Source of the DNA: Myxococcus xanthus
GTDB lineage: Bacteria; Myxococcota; Myxococcia; Myxococcales; Myxococcaceae
Reading direction: 5' to 3'
DNA: 64,000 nucleotides
Assembly: GCF_900106535.1 (NCBI RefSeq)
Contig: NZ_FNOH01000018.1
Span: forward strand, 62,001 to 126,000
This document shows, in pieces, positions 13,839-32,989 of this stretch (its first letter is position 1; each line of letters starts with the position of its first letter). A model generated the notes under the pieces. The model was given only the letters and a program-made list of their open reading frames with translations. It searched no databases and had not been told where the DNA came from. Position numbers and translations under genes: made by a program.

Positions 13839-13941
13839 CACGCCCTCGTGCAACACCGCCACGAAGATGTCACCGCTCCGTCACCCCCGATGGGCCGGCC
13901 TTCGTGGATTCTCTCGATAACGTTTTGATAGGTTCGAATCG

Positions 13942-14877
13942 ATGCACGCACATGGCTGGCGGTTGCGCGGGTGGGCCCTCATCCTGGTGCTGGGCCTGGG
14001 TGCCCGACCGGGCTGGAGCCGGCCCCTCTTCCCTGAGCCTGTTCTCTCGCAGCTCGGCCCGGCCAGCCCGGCCATCACCGAGGCCCGCGAGCAGTTCGAC
14101 CAGGGCGAATTCGAAGACGCACGTCGCACCATCCTGGAAGGCCTGGATGCGCCGGACCTGACGGATGATCAGTTGGTGGAGATGTACCGCCTGCTGGGCC
14201 TCACGGCCCTCTACCTGGGGGACGAGCCCCAGGCGCGCGACGCCTACGAGAAGCTGCTCCAGGCCCGGCCGGACTACGAGCTCCCCCGCAGCTCCCCGCC
14301 CAAGCTGCGCGCCCTCTACGCGCGCATCCGCGAGGACATCAAGAGCCGGCGCGTCCGCCCCGTCACCCTGGACGTGGACCCCATCCCTGATCCGCCGGGT
14401 GGCGAGCCCGTCGTCGTGGAGGCCGCCATCCAGGACCTGGCGCTGGGCGCCCGCGCGCGCCTCTTCTACCGGCGCGCCGGTGACGAGGCCTACAGCTCGG
14501 TGGACTTCGCACGTGAGCGAGGCCCCGACGGCCGCCCCCGCGAGCGCTACCGCGCGGTGCTGCCGGCCTATGAAGTGCCCACCGAGGCCGAGGCCTACGA
14601 GATGGAGTACTACTTCGAGGTCGCGGACGCGGCGCAGCGCCGGCTCGCGGGCCGGGGAGACTCCTTCCAGCCGCTCATCTTCCAGGTGGCGCCCCGGGCC
14701 GTGCGCGCCGGCGCCGCCGCCGACCCGTCCTCCCGTCCCTGGTACAAGAGCCCCTGGCTCTGGGTGGGCGTGGGCGCGGTGGCCATTGGCGCCACCGCCG
14801 GCATCGTGGCGCTGACCTCCGGCGAAGAGCGGGGCCGCGTTCCCATCACCATCCGCGTGGAGCCCCCCGCCCCATGA
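13942..14877 (+). CDS. TPR-containing envelope protein with C-terminal membrane segment
   Basis: Not recognised as a named protein. The 311-residue chain starts with an Arg-flanked hydrophobic stretch that looks like a signal peptide (ILVLGLGARPGWS). A helical region with TPR-like character (about 45-140) includes EAREQFDQGEFEDARRTI. A beta-rich middle follows, and one transmembrane helix lies close to the C terminus (WLWVGVGAVAIGATAGIVAL). It overlaps the next lipoprotein gene by 4 bases (ATGA), so the two probably form an envelope pair. Similar TPR plus tail proteins are frequent in myxobacteria; function unknown. Confidence 0.75.
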   Translation: MHAHGWRLRGWALILVLGLGARPGWSRPLFPEPVLSQLGPASPAITEAREQFDQGEFEDARRTILEGLDAPDLTDDQLVEMYRLLGLTALYLGDEPQARDAYEKLLQARPDYELPRSSPPKLRALYARIREDIKSRRVRPVTLDVDPIPDPPGGEPVVVEAAIQDLALGARARLFYRRAGDEAYSSVDFARERGPDGRPRERYRAVLPAYEVPTEAEAYEMEYYFEVADAAQRRLAGRGDSFQPLIFQVAPRAVRAGAAADPSSRPWYKSPWLWVGVGAVAIGATAGIVALTSGEERGRVPITIRVEPPAP

Positions 14878-24196: not shown

Positions 24197-24200
<4 letters not shown>

Positions 24201-25846
24201 CGGGCCACCTCCAACGGAAGGCGCAGCGTGAAGCGGCTTCCCAGCGGACTCCGGACATAGTTCAGACTGCCACCATGGGCCTCCACGGAGGCACGCGCCA
24301 TGGGCAGTCCCAGCCCCACGCCCTTCGCCCGCCCGGTGGCGAAAGGTTCCCACAACCTGGGCTCGAGACGCGGATCCACGCCGCCCGCATTGTCCTCCAC
24401 CACGAGCACGGCGTCATGTTCGTCCCGCGTCAGACTCACGCTGACCCACGGTGCCAACTGCATCCCTGTGTCCTTCGCCACCGCGCCTGCCTCCACCGCG
24501 TTGCGCAACACGTTGTCGATGGCGGACACCAGCAGCGCCGCATCCCCCTGGACCCACAGGGACTCCTCCAGGGACGTAGTCAGTGCCACGGCCTCTGACT
24601 CCGGCAGCAGCTTCACGCCCTGGAGCGCGTCCTTCACCAGCAGGTGCACCTCGCAGCGGCGGCGCAGCGCGGCACGAGGCGCCCCGAAGGACAGCAGCGA
24701 GCGCGCCAGATGGCTCAAGCGCTCCACCTGCGAGCGCAGCGCGCCCACGGGCAGCTCGCTGCCCGCGGGGGTATGCCGGAGCACGGACAGCGCGGCCTGG
24801 ATGCCGTTGAGGGCGTTCTTCACCTCATGCGCGATGAGCGAGGCCGCGGTCCCCAGCGCCGCCATGGTCTCCTGGCGTCGCAGCCGCTCCTCGGCCGCCA
24901 GCAGCGAACGGTAGGAGTGCCGCAGCAGGAGGATGAAGATGATGAGCGTGCTGCTCAGCAGGGCGATGTGGAACGCCAGCTGCCGCAGGAAGCGCGCCCG
25001 GAGGCCCGCGGTGGCCGTCTCCTCCTCCAGGACGACCAACAGCAGGTCGCTCTTCCCCACCCACGCGCCCGCGCCCATCATGTGCTTGTCATCCAGCGTC
25101 AGCGGCCCCGGCATGTTCGCCAGCGCGCGCAGCCCCCCCGTGATGTCCCCGGCGCCCAGATTGAACCCCACTGGCATCAGGATCTGACCCTGGTCATCCA
25201 TCAGCACCAGTGACGTCTGCGCGGTGGGCCGCGTGGGCAGCGCGCTGGCGCGGAGCTCTCCCAGCAGCACACCCTTGAAGCGGCCCTCCTGGAACATGGG
25301 GACGGCGACCACGATGGGCCCCCCCTCCCCTTCCAGCAGGTCGATTTCCGGCTGGCGGCCCTCCACCATCCGGCGGAACCAGGGCCGCAGCGTCAGCGGC
25401 GAGCGCCCCAGCGGCATGTCCGGAGGGTCGCTCCAGACGCGCTCGCCCGCGGGCGTCAGCAGGGCCACGCCCTCCGAGAAGAGGGACGAATGGTAGAAGG
25501 CGCTCTCCAGCAGGGCCAGCTCCGCCGGGGAGGCGCCGTCCTCAGGAGACAGCGCGGGGTGCCCGGCCACGCGGGCCAGCTCCGCCTCCAACAGCCCCAG
25601 GTGGACGCCCAGCGCCTCCGACTGCACCTGCGCCTGGTTGAGCAGCCGGCTCAGCAGCTCCTCGCGCGCGTTGCGCACGTCCTCCACGTAGCCCAGCACG
25701 GGGCTCGTCAGCGCCACCAGCCCCACCAGCCCCAGACCGACGAGCGCGGAGCGCCCCCCGCGCCGCTGCGCGTGGGCCAGCTCACCCGGCGTGGGGGTCA
25801 GCGTCGGCAGTGGCGGTGGTGTTGGCGGCAGGTGGGCGGAAGTCAT
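24197..25846 (-). CDS. Membrane sensor histidine kinase with extracytoplasmic Cache-like domain
   Basis: 549 residues. A Pro/Thr-rich cytoplasmic start (about 1-30) precedes a first transmembrane helix (VGLGLVGLVALTSPVLGYV) and an extracytoplasmic domain of about 230 residues resembling Cache sensors. A second helix follows (LLSSTLIIFILLL). The kinase core has LIAHEVKNALNGIQAAL with the phospho-His, then DNVLRNAVEAG, VEDNAGGVDP and GVGLGLPMARASVEAHGG. NtrB-like catalytic motifs fit its pairing with the sigma-54 activator, to which it is coupled by a 4-base overlap. The Cache-like domain suggests sensing of a small extracellular molecule. Confidence 0.93.
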
Positions 25847-26041: not shown

Positions 26042-26731
26042 ATGCCCCATGTCCTCATCATCGACGACGAACGCGACCTCGCGGAGCTCATTGATTTCAA
26101 CCTGCGGGGTTCCGGCCTCACCACGCACGTGTCCCACACTGGCGAAGAAGCGCTGGTGGCAGCGCGGGAGCAGAACCCCGACCTCGTGCTGCTGGACCTG
26201 ATGCTGCCGGACATGTCCGGCATCGATGTCTGCCGGCAGCTGCGGGCCAGCCCCCAGTCCCGGGGCGTCCTCATCGTCATGCTCACCGCCAAGGGCGAGG
26301 AGTCCGACCGCATCCGCGGCTTCGAGGTGGGCGCGGACGACTACGTGGTGAAGCCCTTCAGCGTGCGGGAGCTGGTGCTGCGGCTGAAGGCCATCCTCCG
26401 CCGCGGCGCGCCCACGGCTGGGGGCACGGCGCCGCTGGCGCTGGGGCCCCTGCGCCTGGACGTGGCGTCCCACCGCTTCTTCGTGGAGGACCGCGAGGTG
26501 GCCCTCACCGCGCTGGAGTTCCGGCTCCTGGAGCACCTGCTCGCCCGCCTGGGCCGGGTGCAGACACGTGAGCAGTTGCTGGAAGAGGTGTGGGGCCTGT
26601 CATCCTCCCTGGAGACGCGCACCATCGACACCCACGTCATGCGCCTGCGCGACAAGCTGGGCCCGGCGCGCGCGCTGCTGGAGACGGTCCGCGGTGTCGG
26701 CTACCGGATGCTGGACCCAGCCGCGGGCTGA
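26042..26731 (+). CDS. Orphan PhoB/OmpR-family response regulator upstream of pst
   Basis: 229 residues, receiver plus winged helix. Asp52 in LVLLDLMLPD, GADDYVVKPFSVRELVLRLKAILRR and the DNA-binding part (LTALEFRLLEHLL, RTIDTHVMRLRDKLG, TVRGVGYRML) are complete. No kinase gene adjoins it; the divergent neighbour is the sigma-54 kinase, which has its own partner. It is a close paralogue of the regulator at 15403. It lies directly upstream of pstS and is the best candidate to control it. The orphan regulator PhoP4 of M. xanthus fits this description, but I cannot confirm identity. Confidence 0.93.
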   Translation: MPHVLIIDDERDLAELIDFNLRGSGLTTHVSHTGEEALVAAREQNPDLVLLDLMLPDMSGIDVCRQLRASPQSRGVLIVMLTAKGEESDRIRGFEVGADDYVVKPFSVRELVLRLKAILRRGAPTAGGTAPLALGPLRLDVASHRFFVEDREVALTALEFRLLEHLLARLGRVQTREQLLEEVWGLSSSLETRTIDTHVMRLRDKLGPARALLETVRGVGYRMLDPAAG

Positions 26732-26863: not shown

Positions 26864-27685
26864 ATGAAATCGCTCCTCAAGCCCCTGCTCGCGGTGTTCC
26901 TCCTGGCGCTCCCCGCCGTTGCCCAGGCGGGCACCGTGACCATCAAGGGCTCCGACACCATGGTCATCCTCGGCCAGCGCTGGGCCGAGGCGTTCATGAA
27001 GAAGAACCCCAACATCAAGGTCCAGGTCACCGGCGGCGGCTCCGGCGTGGGCCTGGCGGCGCTCCAGAACGGCACCACGGACATCGCCATGTCCAGCCGG
27101 GAGATGAAGAAGGCGGAGGCCGACAAGCTCCGCGCGCGCTACAAGGCGCCGCCCGCGCAGCGCTCGGTGGCCAAGGACGGCGTCACCTTCTACGTCCACC
27201 AGGGCAACCCCGTGAGCGCGCTCACCACCGAGCAGCTGATGAAGATCTACGTGGGCGACATCACCTCCTGGAAGCAGGTGGGCGGCGCGGACGCGCCCAT
27301 CGTCGCGTACTCCCGGGAGAACTCCTCCGGCACCTACGTCTTCGTGAAGGACATGGTGCTGGACGGCGAGGACTTCGCGCCCGCCATCCAGACACTGCCC
27401 GGCACCGCCGCGGTGGTGAACGCGGTCTCCAAGGAGAAGAACAGCCTGGGCTACGGCGGCGCCGCGTACGCAGAGGGCATCAAGGAGCTGAAGGTGAAGA
27501 AGGGCAACGAGGAGATCGCCCCCAGCGCGGACAACATCAAGAGCGGCAAGTACCCGCTGGCGCGCGACCTCTTCTTCTACCTGCGCGCCGAGCCGACCGG
27601 CGACATCAAGGCCTTCATCGACTTCGCGCTCTCCCCCGAAGGTCAGGCGATCGTCACCCAGGTCGGCTACTTCCCCGTGAAGTAG
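26864..27685 (+). CDS. pstS: Phosphate ABC transporter substrate-binding protein PstS
   Basis: Periplasmic phosphate receptor, 273 residues. A type I signal peptide (KSLLKPLLAVFLLALPAVAQA) is followed by GTVTIKGSDTM, TGGGSGVGLAAL, DIAMSSREMKK and SRENSSGTYVF, the phosphate-binding loops of the shorter PstS class. There is no lipobox, so it is free in the periplasm. The ATG at 26864 has GGAG upstream; the open frame to 26753 is rejected because it would put the signal peptide inside the protein. It leads the pstSCAB-phoU cluster. Confidence 0.96.
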   Translation: MKSLLKPLLAVFLLALPAVAQAGTVTIKGSDTMVILGQRWAEAFMKKNPNIKVQVTGGGSGVGLAALQNGTTDIAMSSREMKKAEADKLRARYKAPPAQRSVAKDGVTFYVHQGNPVSALTTEQLMKIYVGDITSWKQVGGADAPIVAYSRENSSGTYVFVKDMVLDGEDFAPAIQTLPGTAAVVNAVSKEKNSLGYGGAAYAEGIKELKVKKGNEEIAPSADNIKSGKYPLARDLFFYLRAEPTGDIKAFIDFALSPEGQAIVTQVGYFPVK

Positions 27686-27693
27686 CCGCGGAG

Positions 27694-27711
27694 CGTCACA
27701 CGAATGTCACA
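27694..27711 (+). promoter_or_regulatory. pstC: Candidate Pho box between pstS and pstC
   Basis: GTCAC at 27695-27699 and again at 27706-27710 are direct repeats exactly 11 bases apart, as in PhoB-bound sites. The gap between pstS and pstC is only 43 bases, so this could drive an internal promoter for the permease genes. Confidence 0.5.
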
Positions 27712-27728: not shown

Positions 27729-28727
27729 ATGGATAGACAGGCGACCATGGAGCAAGGTCTCACGCGGGTCGTGGCCGCGCCGCGCCTGTCCGCGGCGGCG
27801 CGGAAGCGTCAACTGCGGGAGAAGGCCGTCGCGGGCTTCATCACCCTGATGGCGTTCACGGGCATCGCCGCGCTCATCCTCATCATCGTCTTCGTGGCCA
27901 AGGAGGCGCTGACGCTCTTCACCGACGCGGACGCCCGCCACGAAGCCAGCCTGGCCAAGATGTTCCTGCCGCAGGAGGGCCGCTACCCGTTCCGGTGGCA
28001 GCCCGTGTCGGACACGCCCAAGGTCAGCATGATTCCGCTGTTCGTGGGCACGCTGAAAATCACCCTGGTCTCCATGCTGGTGGCGGTGCCCATGGGCGTC
28101 TTCAGCGCGCTCTTCGTCGCGGAGTTCGCCCCGCGCCGCCTGCGCGAGTTGCTCAAGCCCATCATCGAACTGCTGGCCGGCATCCCCTCGGTGGTGCTGG
28201 GCTTCTTCGCGCTGATGGTGCTGTCCCCGGTGGTGAAGGACCTGTTCCACCTGGACCGGCCGCTCAACGGCACGCTGGCGGGGCTGGCGCTGGCGCTGGC
28301 CATCGTCCCGGTCATCTTCACCGTATCCGAGGACGCGCTCACCGCGGTGCCCCGCAGCTACCGCGAGGCCTCGCTGGCGCTGGGCGCCACGCTCTGGGAG
28401 ACGGCGTGGAAGGTGGTGCTGCCCGCGGCGGCCCCCGGCATCCTCGCCGCGTGCGTGCTGGGCTTCGGCCGGGCCATTGGCGAGACGATGATTGTCCTCA
28501 TGGCGTCAGGCAACGCGGACATCGTGTCCTGGAACCTGGGGGACTCGGCGCGCTCGCTGTCGGCCACCATCGCGGCGGAGATGGGTGAAGTGGTGGTGGG
28601 CAGCCCGCACTACTCCCTGCTCTTCTTCATCGGCGTGGAGCTGTTCATCTTCACCTTCGTCCTCAACATGGTCGCCTCCACGTGGACGAAGAAGGTCCTC
28701 CAGCGGCTGACCGGGAGCGCCTCGTGA
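27729..28727 (+). CDS. pstC: Phosphate ABC transporter permease PstC
   Basis: Inner-membrane half of the phosphate channel, 332 residues with six predicted helices. The permease signature with the EAA loop is visible ([25 protein letters not shown]), as is LLAGIPSVVLGFFALMVL. An extracytoplasmic loop (about 60-95) is longer than in E. coli. The ATG at 27729 is used; another in-frame ATG at 27747 is possible. It overlaps pstA by GTGA. Confidence 0.96.
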   Translation: MDRQATMEQGLTRVVAAPRLSAAARKRQLREKAVAGFITLMAFTGIAALILIIVFVAKEALTLFTDADARHEASLAKMFLPQEGRYPFRWQPVSDTPKVSMIPLFVGTLKITLVSMLVAVPMGVFSALFVAEFAPRRLRELLKPIIELLAGIPSVVLGFFALMVLSPVVKDLFHLDRPLNGTLAGLALALAIVPVIFTVSEDALTAVPRSYREASLALGATLWETAWKVVLPAAAPGILAACVLGFGRAIGETMIVLMASGNADIVSWNLGDSARSLSATIAAEMGEVVVGSPHYSLLFFIGVELFIFTFVLNMVASTWTKKVLQRLTGSAS

Positions 28728-29635
28728 AGTACACCACGCGCCGGGCGGTGGGGCTGGGCCTCACCGGACTGACGGCCCTCGCGGCCTTCTTCATCGTGGG
28801 CATGTTGGCCCTCATCCTGCTGAACATCGCGCGCAACGGCGCCCGTCACCTCTCCTGGACCTTCCTCACCCAGCCCCCCAGCGACGGCATGATGGGCGGC
28901 GGCATCTTCCCCGCCATCTTCGGCACCGCCGCGCTCACGCTCCTGATGACGCTGGCGGTGATGCCGGTAGGTGTGCTCACCGCCGTGTACCTCCACGAGT
29001 ACGCGCCGCCGGAGTCACGCTTCGCCCGCTGGGTGCGCGTGGCGGTGGTCAACCTCGCGGGCGTGCCCTCCATCGTCTTCGGCCTCTTCGGGCTCGGCTT
29101 CTTCATCCTCTTCGTCGGCGGCAACCTGGACCGGATGCTGGGCTATGAGGAGATGCACTGGGCCCAGCCGGGCATCCTCTGGGCCTCGCTGACGCTGGCG
29201 GTGCTGACGCTGCCGGTGGTCATCGTCTCCACGGAGGAGGCGCTGCGCGCGGTGCCGCTGGAGCAGCGCACCGCCAGCCTGGCACTGGGCGCCACCCAGT
29301 CGCAGACGCTGGCGCGGGTGGTGCTGCCCGGCGCCCTGCCCGGCATCCTCACCGGCGCGGTGCTGGCCATCTCCCGCGGCGCGGGCGAAGTCGCCCCCAT
29401 CCTCTTCACCGGCGCCGCCTACTTCCTGCCGGACCTGCCCACGCACCTGGACTCCCAGTTCATGCACCTGGGCTACCACACGTATGTCATGGCCACCCAG
29501 TCACCGAACGTGACGGAGGCCAGTGGTCCGCTGTATGCGACGGTGCTGGTGCTGCTGGCGCTCACCTTCGCCCTCAACCTCGTCGCGGTCATCATCCGGA
29601 CGCGCACGCGCCGCAAGGCCGCCAGCGCCCACTGA
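28724..29635 (+). CDS. pstA: Phosphate ABC transporter permease PstA
   Basis: Second permease subunit, 303 residues with six hydrophobic helices. [19 protein letters not shown] and the EAA-type loop ([27 protein letters not shown], split here only for length) identify it. The GTG at 28724 overlaps the pstC stop, which is why I prefer it to the open frame extending to 28682. It is followed by pstB after 13 bases. Confidence 0.96.
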
Positions 29636-29648
29636 CGGTACGCCTGCC

Positions 29649-30425
29649 ATGTCCCTCCAACCCCAGAATCCCCGAGCGAAGATGGAAGCGCGGGAGCTCT
29701 CCCTTCGCTACGGCCCCAAGACGGCCATCCACAAGGTGTCCCTGGCCATCCTCGACCGGCGGGTGACGGCGCTCATCGGCCCCTCCGGCTGTGGGAAGTC
29801 CACCTTCCTGCGCTCCCTCAACCGGATGAACGACCTCATCTCCGGCACCACGCATTCGGGCACCATCCTGCTGGACGGCACGGACATCCATGACCGCGGC
29901 GTGGACGTGGTGGACCTGCGCCGGCGCGTGGGCATGGTCTTCCAGAAGTCCAACCCCTTCCCCAAGAGCATCTTCGAGAACGTGGCCTACGGCCTGCGCG
30001 TGGGCGGGATGAAGGACAAGGCGGAGCTGGCCACGCGCGTGGAGAAGTCACTGCGCGGCGCCGCGCTCTGGGACGAGGTGAAGGACCGGCTGGACGAAAG
30101 CGCCCTGGGCCTGTCCGGCGGCCAGCAGCAGCGCCTGTGCATCGCCCGCGCGATGGCGGTGGAGCCGGAGGTGCTGCTGATGGACGAGCCCGCCAGCGCG
30201 TTGGACCCCATCGCCACCGCGAAAATCGAGGAGCTCATCCACGAGCTCAAGTCGACGTACACCATCGCCATCGTCACCCACAACATGCAGCAGGCCGCGC
30301 GCGTCAGCGACCGCACCGCTTTCTTCTACATGGGCGAGCTGGTGGAATGCGGCCCCACCGAGCAGATCTTCACCAACCCGCGAGAGAAGCGCACCGAGGA
30401 CTACGTCACCGGCAAGTTCGGGTGA
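29649..30425 (+). CDS. pstB: Phosphate ABC transporter ATP-binding protein PstB
   Basis: ATPase subunit, 258 residues. Walker [10 protein letters not shown], signature LSGGQQQR, Walker [13 protein letters not shown] and the switch His in IVTHNMQQA are complete. SLNRMNDLI after Walker A is a specific PstB feature. Start ATG at 29649; the upstream open frame overlaps pstA. It is followed by phoU after 25 bases. Confidence 0.97.
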
Positions 30426-30450: not shown

Positions 30451-31137
30451 ATGCCGTCGATGCATACGGACAAGGCCTTCGAGGCGGACCTGAGGGATTT
30501 GCGGGAGAAGCTGCTCGCCATGGGCGCGAAGGTGGAGACCCTCATCGTCCAGAGCATGAAGGCGCTCACAGACCGCGACAGCGCCCTGGCCGAGAAGGTC
30601 GTCGCCGCCGACAAGGACGTCAACCGCCTGGAGGTGGACATCGACGAGCTGTGCCGGAAGATTCTGGCGCTGCGCCAGCCCGCCGCCAGCGACTTGCGCC
30701 TCATCACCACGGCGCTGAAGATCGTCACCGACCTGGAGCGCATCGGCGACCTGGCGGTGAACATCGCCGAGCGCTCCATGGACCTGAACCAGGCCCCCCC
30801 GCTGGCGCCCTACGTGGACACGCCCCGGCTGGCGGAGCTGGCCCAGCGGCAGGTCCGCATGTCGCTGGACGCCTTCGTCTCCGGCGACGTCGCCAAGGCG
30901 GAGGAGGTGCTCCGGGGCGACGACTTGCTGGATGCCCTCTTCCTCAAAATCTTCAACGAGCTCCTCGCCTACATGATGGAGGACTCGCGCAACATCCGCC
31001 GCGCCACGGCGCTGATGTTCATCGCGAAGCACCTGGAGCGCATTGGCGACCACGCGCTGAACGTGGCGGAGATGGTCGTCTACATGGTGCGCGGCAAGGA
31101 CATCCGCCACCCGCAGAGCCGCAACCTGGCGGAGTAG
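30451..31137 (+). CDS. phoU: Phosphate signalling protein PhoU
   Basis: Helical repressor of the Pho response that links Pst to the PhoR kinase. The 228 residues contain the two PhoU repeats, with DLERIGDLAVNIAERS (about 93-108) and LERIGDHALNVAEMVVY (about 190-206), the metal-binding E/DxxxD motifs. It closes the pst cluster, as in most bacteria. Confidence 0.97.
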   Translation: MPSMHTDKAFEADLRDLREKLLAMGAKVETLIVQSMKALTDRDSALAEKVVAADKDVNRLEVDIDELCRKILALRQPAASDLRLITTALKIVTDLERIGDLAVNIAERSMDLNQAPPLAPYVDTPRLAELAQRQVRMSLDAFVSGDVAKAEEVLRGDDLLDALFLKIFNELLAYMMEDSRNIRRATALMFIAKHLERIGDHALNVAEMVVYMVRGKDIRHPQSRNLAE

Positions 31138-31151
31138 CCCGCGGGCGCGGG

Positions 31152-31169
31152 ATTCACCGCCCTGTCACC
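31152..31169 (+). promoter_or_regulatory. Candidate Pho box upstream of the glycosyltransferase
   Basis: ATTCAC (TTCAC at 31153-31157) and TGTCAC (GTCAC at 31164-31168) repeat with an 11-base period, like the sites before pstS and pstC. It lies in the 143-base gap between phoU and the glycosyltransferase gene, about 110 bases before the ATG. Confidence 0.45.
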
Positions 31170-31280
31170 GCGAATTGCCCGGCCCGCCCCGGGCGCTTCG
31201 CGGGGCTGACGTGGAAGGCCTCTAGCGTGGCAACCGTGGTCGCGCCATGACGGCGCACCGGCCCCGGGGATTGCCCGCGA

Positions 31281-32489
31281 ATGTTGCTCGCCTCCACCGT
31301 CCTGCTGCTTGCCGCCTGCCTCGGACTGTTCGTTCTCACCGTCCAGTTCGCGCTCGTGCTGCGTCACCGGCGTGAGCCGTCCCCCACCGCGCAACCGGGC
31401 ACGCCCCGCCCGGGCATCTCCATCCTCAAGCCGCTGTGCGGCGTGGATGACGACCTGGAAGCCAACCTGGCGCAGTTCGCGGCGCTGGACTACGCGGGCG
31501 CGTACGAGGTGGTGCTCGGCGTCAAGGATGCCAGGGACCCGGCCTTCGCCGTGGCCCGCGCGGCCGTGGCCCGCTGGCCCCACGTCATGCGCCTGGAAGT
31601 CCAGGACGGCGAGCCGGGCCGCAACCCGAAGGTGAACCAGCTCATCACCCTGGCGGACCGGGCGCGCTACGACGTGCTGGTCATCAGCGACAGCAACACG
31701 CGGGTGGCGCCGGGATACCTGGAGGAGATTGCCCAGGCCTTCGAGGACCCGGCGGTGGGCTGTGTCACCCACCCGGTGGCGGGCATGGGCGAGCGCTCCT
31801 TCGGCTCGCTCCTGGACAACCTGCACCTGGGCGCCAGCGCGGCGGCGGGGATGATTGCCGCCAAGCGGCTGGCGGGCCAGGACATCGTGGTGGGCAAGTC
31901 CATGGCGCTGCGCCGCGAGGACGTGGACGCGCTGGGGGGCTTCTTCTCCGTGAAGGATGTACTGGCGGAGGACTACGTCATCGGCCAGTGGGTGACGCGG
32001 AAACTGGGCCGGCGCGTGGTGATGGCGCACACGCCCGTGTTCAACGTGTCGCTGCGCAAGAGCGTCCTGTCCTTCTTCCAGCGCTATGTGCGCTGGAGCG
32101 TGATTCACCGGACCGCGGTGTCTCCGGGGACGTACCTGGCCCAGGCCCTGCTGAACCCCACGCCGCTGGCCCTGTTGGGCGCGATGCTGGCCCCCTCCTC
32201 CGACACCGCGGCGCTCTGCCTGGTGGTGGCCCTGGGCAAGGTCGCGGTAGACCTCTCCACCGTGCGCGCCCTGCGGCCGCAGGCCCTGTCGTGGGACGCG
32301 GTGCCCGCCGTCTTCGCCAAGGACGCCCTGCTCTTCGCGGCCTGGAGCTACGCGCTCTTCTCCCGCACTGTGAACTGGCGCGGCACCCGGCTGCGCGTGG
32401 GCCGGGGCACCCGGCTGATGCCGGTGCGCACGGCAGGCCTGACGTCCGAGCCCGCGCTGCCCCAGGGCGACCGCATCCTCGCGGGCTGA
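31281..32489 (+). CDS. Ceramide glucosyltransferase-like family 2/21 glycosyltransferase
   Basis: Membrane glycosyltransferase of 402 residues. An N-terminal transmembrane helix is followed by a GT-A domain: ISILKPLCGVDDDLEANL, GRNPKVNQL, LVISDSN (metal-binding Asp), LAEDYVIG (catalytic Asp) and the QRYVRW (Q/R-x-x-R-W) motif of processive GT2 and ceramide glucosyltransferase families. C-terminal hydrophobic helices follow. Such enzymes transfer glucose from UDP-glucose to ceramide or diacylglycerol-like lipids. Position after phoU with a Pho-box-like site suggests synthesis of phosphate-free glycolipid during phosphate limitation. The exact acceptor is inferred. Confidence 0.87.
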   Translation: MLLASTVLLLAACLGLFVLTVQFALVLRHRREPSPTAQPGTPRPGISILKPLCGVDDDLEANLAQFAALDYAGAYEVVLGVKDARDPAFAVARAAVARWPHVMRLEVQDGEPGRNPKVNQLITLADRARYDVLVISDSNTRVAPGYLEEIAQAFEDPAVGCVTHPVAGMGERSFGSLLDNLHLGASAAAGMIAAKRLAGQDIVVGKSMALRREDVDALGGFFSVKDVLAEDYVIGQWVTRKLGRRVVMAHTPVFNVSLRKSVLSFFQRYVRWSVIHRTAVSPGTYLAQALLNPTPLALLGAMLAPSSDTAALCLVVALGKVAVDLSTVRALRPQALSWDAVPAVFAKDALLFAAWSYALFSRTVNWRGTRLRVGRGTRLMPVRTAGLTSEPALPQGDRILAG

Positions 32490-32542: not shown

Positions 32543-32989
32543 ATGTCGCCGCTCGCGGAGAATGATGGCGCCCTTCAGCGGCGTTCATCTCAGGTCGGGG
32601 GAGGACGATTGGCGCGACTGGCAACGGATAACGGCGCAAGAAGGGTATTGGTCGTCGATGACGACGCGGACTGGAGGGAATTCCTCCGGCTCAGCCTGGA
32701 GGACCTTGGCTACGAGACGACCGAGGCCTCGGATGGGCAGGAGGCCCTGGAGACGCTGAGGCGTGGCGGACGCTACGGGGTGATGCTGCTGGACCTCAAC
32801 ATGCCGGGCATGTCCGGGCTGGACGTCGTGGAGCATCTGCCGCGCGGGCCGCATCCCCGCATCGTCTTCCTGACGTCCGCGGCGGCGCAGGATGTAGGCA
32901 GTGCCCTGCTCTCAGGGCCACACTACTACCTCCCAAAAGGTGCGAGCCGCGACCAATTGTCACTCCTTTTGCAGTCACTTGGTGAGTGA
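32543..32989 (+). CDS. Stand-alone response-regulator receiver protein
   Basis: Receiver-only protein of 148 residues from the ATG at 32543. The acidic pocket is VVDDDAD, the phosphoacceptor Asp84 is in MLLDLNMPGMSGLDV, and Thr/Ser (VFLTSAAA) and Lys (YYLPKGAS) are present. A TTG at 32609 with GGGGAGG four bases upstream is a serious alternative start and would remove the 22 non-conserved N-terminal residues. No kinase adjoins it, so it is an orphan output or phosphate sink. Confidence 0.85.
   Translation: MSPLAENDGALQRRSSQVGGGRLARLATDNGARRVLVVDDDADWREFLRLSLEDLGYETTEASDGQEALETLRRGGRYGVMLLDLNMPGMSGLDVVEHLPRGPHPRIVFLTSAAAQDVGSALLSGPHYYLPKGASRDQLSLLLQSLGE

Follow-up and report, generated by a model that had tools for sequence, protein, structure and literature searches.

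Why should a gene for a membrane glycosyltransferase lie directly behind pstSCAB-phoU in a myxobacterium? The question is posed by a 64,000-nucleotide stretch, here called the window, of a 9.26 Mb Myxococcus xanthus genome. A sequence-only reading of this DNA had placed the gene in the Pho regulon and proposed that its enzyme, a member of the GT21 family, makes a phosphate-free glycosphingolipid or glycolipid. The family is best known for eukaryotic glucosylceramide. Two questions can be separated: whether phosphate controls the gene, and which lipid, if any, receives the sugar.

The pst-phoU locus and its gene order

The features of the locus are collected in Table 1. The GT21 gene follows phoU directly, and the family score of the latter bears out the neighbour named earlier. 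As the pstB profile covers residues 54–300, the true start of that gene probably lies further downstream than 29523.

Table 1. Features of the window around the GT21 gene, with profile scores and cut-offs
Feature	Position	Strand	Basis
Divergent sensor kinase	24197..25846	-	PhoR model 54.1 bits, cut-off 334.2; unrecognisable as PhoR
PhoB-like response regulator	26042..26731	+	TIGR02154 best family, 250.5 bits, under cut-off 296.2
pstS	26864..27685	+	TIGR02136 239.3 bits, cut-off 206.6
Pho-box-like repeat upstream of pstC	27695..27710	+	motif count; conserved in relatives
pstC	27729..28727	+	TIGR02138 253.8 bits, cut-off 196.45
pstA	28682..29635	+	TIGR00974 249.3 bits, cut-off 193.45
pstB	29523..30425	+	TIGR00972 408.7 bits, cut-off 343.2
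phoU	30451..31137	+	phoU_full TIGR02135 224.8 bits, cut-off 130.25
Pho-box-like direct repeat TTCAC-N6-GTCAC, 11-nt period	31153..31168	+	conservation, motif counts
Possible third, degenerate half-site TTGCC, same 11-nt register	31175..31179	+	conservation at +11 offset
-10-like hexamer TAGCGT, 54 nt downstream of box	31223..31228	+	fixed spacing in relatives
GT21-type membrane glycosyltransferase, 402 aa	31281..32489	+	PF13506 (Pfam Glyco_transf_21) 154.3 bits, cut-off 21.7; model pLDDT 92.5
Single-domain response regulator, downstream of GT21	32612..32989	+	PF00072 79.4 bits

The order PstB-PhoU-GT21 recurs in all 26 congeners and in five loci from other genera or families. A wider context set of named loci takes in the best 80 of the 244 that were confirmed; some of them are close relatives and non-independent. 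Among these 80, phoU stands directly upstream of the GT21 gene in 30 and some pst or phoU gene is within reach in 34; a PhoB-like regulator is within reach in seven and a phosphoesterase in 39, and in 30 loci none of these is within reach.

Several smaller features of these loci are worth recording. A single-domain response regulator follows the GT21 gene, or the GT21 gene and a phosphoesterase gene, in the 26 congener loci; it also follows the GT21 gene in L067 and L185, though no pst gene was matched there. A Porin_O_P-like gene lies between phoB and pstS in two relatives (L046:9021-10268 and L062:3321-4610); the corresponding gap in the window is 132 nt, so this gene is missing there. One record, Comamonas sp. 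KCTC 72670 (L163), is Myxococcus-like in gene order and tree position, and its label is probably wrong. A distant GT21 relative carries a polyphosphate kinase gene directly downstream (L089:738-2915).

A conserved Pho-box-like repeat and its promoter-like layout

The two half-sites described earlier, ATTCAC (31152-31157) and TGTCAC (31163-31168) with a period of 11 bases, were both found at those positions, the phoU stop lying 15 nt upstream. The 64 kb window contains three copies of the pattern KTCAC-N6-GTCAC (at 13869, 27695 and 31153) against 0.23 expected, and at least three occurrences were seen in none of 100 shuffles. In the 26 congeners the box is exact in 24 and has one mismatch in two, and it is absent from none; among the first 32 phoU-GT21 regions examined the figures are 27 exact, three with one mismatch and two without a box. 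An alignment of 30 regions gives a mean identity of 0.987 for the ten defined box columns versus 0.758 for the other intergenic columns, and none of 20000 random sets of ten columns from the same alignment matched the box in conservation; the inner six (N6) columns reach a mean identity of just 0.64. The second-best conserved window of the box shape (0.93) is found at the +11 offset, where TTGCC may act as a third half-site.

Among the best 80 of 244 loci, the 30 with phoU directly upstream have a perfect box in 22 cases, one mismatch in three and a poorer match in five. The 48 regions without a directly upstream phoU include five perfect boxes; a shuffle p of ≤0.05 is reached in 12 of them and the box is not significant in the other 36. 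L175 and L239, with upstream regions that are too short, were left out of this comparison.

A second element accompanies the repeat. A hexamer of the form TAnnnT stands at exactly +54 from the box in 41 of 43 distinct box-bearing phoU-GT21 regions, four regions with a box score below 9/10 having been dropped, and at other offsets this occurs in 0 of 2709 cases; the inner letters of the hexamer vary between regions. Given the conservation of the box and the fixed 54-nt distance, the region resembles a retained promoter, and comparison across relatives shows the GT21 gene to be preceded, after phoU, by a conserved promoter-like region of its own that consists of a Pho-box repeat and a -10-like hexamer. 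Classically, a Pho box overlaps the -35 element. The wide spacing seen here suggests activation from an upstream site instead of that overlap.

The sequence criterion applied for the Pho regulon, an upstream tandem Pho-box repeat of 11-nt period kept across species, describes the GT21 gene, and Pho control of it is, on the combined pattern of box, spacing and gene order, very probable. The regulon membership proposed in the sequence-only reading is therefore the part of that reading that is strongly supported.

The repeat elsewhere in the locus and the genome

Of 29 related loci, 28 have the strict repeat upstream of pstC; pstS has it in one of 27 and phoB in none of 28. The layout earlier said to be shared with both pstS and pstC thus stands for pstC and is weaker than described for pstS, which in the window has only more widely spaced GTCAC half-sites upstream.

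Across the genome KTCAC-N6-GTCAC has 48 matches, and the reversed pattern 18. A GC3-based ORF caller puts 26 of the 48 within coding sequence and 22 between genes. Ten proteins downstream of other matches were scanned: one is an inositol monophosphatase, one a FAD-binding protein and one a 2OG-Fe(II) oxygenase, and seven gave no family match at 1e-5; six of these seven, rescanned at 0.01, gave weak matches to repeats in two cases and nothing in the other four. With 48 matches and one of ten downstream proteins linked to phosphate by family, a genome-wide Pho regulon is not established from the strict motif.

These figures bear on the possibility that the repeat arose by chance and that phosphate does not control the gene. 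The 26 coding matches, the single phosphate-linked protein in ten and the window site at 13869, which precedes a TPR-like gene, speak for chance; the excess over the reversed pattern, the conservation of the box and the fixed 54-nt spacing speak against it. On conservation and spacing the chance reading was rejected, and it is regarded as very improbable.

Two individual matches deserve mention. An inositol monophosphatase-family gene of the same genome (L125:661-1440) has TTCAC-N6-GTCAC 76 nt upstream and is a possible further Pho-regulon member. The first window site, GTCAC-N6-GTCAC at 13869-13884, lies 58 nt upstream of the start of the TPR-like gene (13942-14877), for which no phosphate link was seen.

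The GT21 enzyme and its relatives

GT21-like enzymes are defined by conserved Asp motifs and a (Q/R)xxRW motif. The window protein carries QRYVRW, its SDS and AED motifs are invariant, and D137, E230-D231, R268, R271 and W272 do not vary across 31 aligned GT21 proteins; together with a PF13506 score far above the cut-off, this upholds the earlier assignment to a GT21/GT2-like enzyme. The protein is 98% identical to one of Myxococcus xanthus AM003, and dN/dS within the M. xanthus-like clade is 0.20–0.26. Comparison shows the gene to encode a GT21-type membrane glycosyltransferase under purifying selection.

The predicted model, of high mean confidence (Table 1), places a mixed core between an N-terminal helix and C-terminal helices; membrane GT2-type synthases and a mannosyltransferase are the solved structures closest to it in fold. 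Sequence comparison finds strong relatives of solved structure only in the ceramide glucosyltransferases (26qf and others), which align over residues 27–376 of 402 at 119 bits with the Asp and RxxRW motifs in register; by BLAST, in contrast, the query is about equally close to HpnI and to more distant Pgt-like proteins. A fold common to polymerising GT2-type synthases, and an acceptor that sequence does not fix, leave some room for a Pho-controlled enzyme that glycosylates something else, for instance a polyprenyl or envelope polymer precursor. In sequence, however, its nearest families are lipid glycosyltransferases, and this alternative is judged improbable.

In the midpoint-rooted tree the query's branch holds 84 rows (98/95), apart from the HpnI group, which has long branches, and from five Pgt-like alphaproteobacterial sequences that form their own branch (100/100); the label "Pgt-like" is assigned here and none of the five is characterised. 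No characterised member of the query's branch is apparent in the open-licence literature searched, and nothing was found on this gene in the open-licence literature on M. xanthus lipids and Pho genes.

HpnI, the bacteriohopanetetrol glucosamine glycosyltransferase, is the best NCBIfam profile for the window protein, and a role in hopanoid synthesis has accordingly to be considered. The score of 257 bits stays under the equivalog cut-off of 310, however, the two branches are separate, and no hopene cyclase match was found in the window's genome by a search in which control genomes gave only below-cut-off matches (2/14). An HpnI-type role was rejected on score, tree and the absent cyclase match, and is the least credible of the readings considered.

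A metallophosphoesterase partner and its absence from one clade

Of 45 genomes, 28 have a gene for a PF00149 metallophosphoesterase of ~270 aa beside the GT21 gene, on the same strand and no more than 600 nt away, downstream of it in 24 and upstream in four; the gene is near the GT21 gene in one more genome and not near it in 16. The count takes one GT21 match per genome at E ≤3.8e-99, 11 genomes with only weaker matches being omitted; in G044 it is the second-best GT21 copy that adjoins the phosphoesterase gene, and the downstream neighbour counted in G031 is a fragment of 60 residues where the contig ends. Counted from the other partner, 31 genomes have a strong phosphoesterase match (E ≤1.3e-40), of which 27 lie beside the GT21 gene, one is a nearby copy and three are unlinked.

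The 16 genomes without a nearby phosphoesterase include all nine examined genomes of the window's M. xanthus-like clade, and in all nine the best match is weak (6e-6 in the window's own genome). Since this group is nested in the tree among phosphoesterase carriers, loss is the simplest reading. The clade lacks the phosphoesterase, yet it has kept both the box and the GT21 enzyme.

The metal-binding motifs of the phosphoesterase are invariant in 20 aligned proteins. For the Pyxidicoccus protein, modelled at pLDDT 83.1, the nearest folds are Rv0805 and GpdQ, LpxH coming further down the list. BLAST against three phosphoesterases encoded beside GT21 genes on alphaproteobacterial plasmids gave nothing significant (best E 0.002), and an alphaproteobacterial phosphoesterase (L106) had no match in the window's genome in a search run without a positive control; among plasmids the myxobacterial phosphoesterase was matched in one weak place only. 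Measured against these three alphaproteobacterial GT21 neighbours, the myxobacterial protein does not appear recognisable as PlcP.

A proposed phosphate-dependent exchange of membrane lipids

In Proteobacteria at low phosphate, PlcP is described as releasing diacylglycerol from phospholipid, and glycosyltransferases, often encoded adjacent, as making glycolipid (PMC4796936, PMC8231724). The operons that join plcP to glycosyltransferase genes (agt and others) resemble the myxobacterial loci in that a metallophosphoesterase gene adjoins a glycosyltransferase gene and Pho boxes are present (PMC4796936). The parts differ: PMC8231724 places Agt in GT4 and the Pgts in GT21, the family of the myxobacterial enzyme, and the myxobacterial phosphoesterase, with its Rv0805/GpdQ-like fold, is absent from the window's clade. 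Another counterpart is found in Agrobacterium tumefaciens and Mesorhizobium loti, whose processive enzyme Pgt is likewise a GT21 lipid glycosyltransferase and linked to phosphate deprivation; a Pho box is predicted at the A. tumefaciens gene too (PMC3972451, PMC8231724). Agrobacterium Pgt is reported to accept diacylglycerol or ceramide and to prefer the former (PMC3972451). Unlike pgt, the myxobacterial gene adjoins phoU, and its product falls outside the Pgt-like branch.

On this comparison, a fall in phosphate would lead a PhoB/PhoP-type regulator, several PhoP regulators being reported for M. xanthus (PMC4415409), to bind the box and turn the GT21 gene on. With a UDP-sugar as donor, the enzyme would then glycosylate a lipid of the membrane, most probably diacylglycerol, and the resulting phosphate-free glycolipid would replace phospholipid. 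In most relatives the neighbouring metallophosphoesterase would free the diacylglycerol from phospholipid, a breakdown suggested by its recurrence as a neighbour. In the window's clade, where the phosphoesterase gene is missing, the acceptor would have to come from another route; it may be ceramide, or diacylglycerol supplied otherwise. A Pho-induced GT21 enzyme that glycosylates a membrane lipid, most likely diacylglycerol, in place of phospholipid is the reading that we hold to be rather likely. A phosphate-free glycolipid, as proposed earlier, is a plausible product.

The choice of acceptor is the weaker half of the earlier proposal, which named a glycosphingolipid and cited Caulobacter as precedent. 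The precedent holds for physiology: Caulobacter makes glycosphingolipid at low phosphate, through PhoB-regulated lipid glycosylation by Sgt1 and Sgt2, much as Pho-controlled lipid glycosylation is proposed here. It does not extend to the enzymes, for Sgt1 and Sgt2 act on ceramide but belong to GT4, and homology of the GT21 window enzyme to them was rejected on that ground (PMC6445935). The same Pho control with ceramide as acceptor and a glycosphingolipid as product would also accord with the alignment to solved ceramide glucosyltransferases, with the listing of M. xanthus among organisms with serine palmitoyltransferase (PMC9386255) and with the want, in the window's clade, of the phosphoesterase that would supply diacylglycerol. 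Against it stand the GT4 membership of the Caulobacter enzymes, the preference of Pgt for diacylglycerol and the recurrent pairing of GT21 and phosphoesterase genes, and we regard it as unlikely. Diacylglycerol is favoured, with ceramide second, since the loci appear to follow the logic of the PlcP systems with different parts.

A broader proposition can be put forward tentatively, at somewhat less than even confidence: that myxobacteria have a phosphate-triggered switch from phospholipid to glycolipid, consisting of a GT21 clade in the pst-phoU locus and a GpdQ/Rv0805-type phosphoesterase in place of PlcP, and that the M. xanthus clade has lost the phosphoesterase and draws on another lipid source, perhaps ceramide. 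If so, phosphate-dependent membrane remodelling, described for groups that include Proteobacteria and marine bacteria, would extend to predatory soil myxobacteria, and a bacterial branch of GT21 would gain a clear physiological setting. The gene pair also offers a natural experiment, one clade having dropped one of the two genes.

A DUF6938 gene immediately follows the GT21 gene in two relatives (L072:2053-3357 and L074:1763-3058). That of L072 has a weak match to diglucosyl diacylglycerol synthase (32 bits against a cut-off of 500) and is a possible second glycolipid enzyme.
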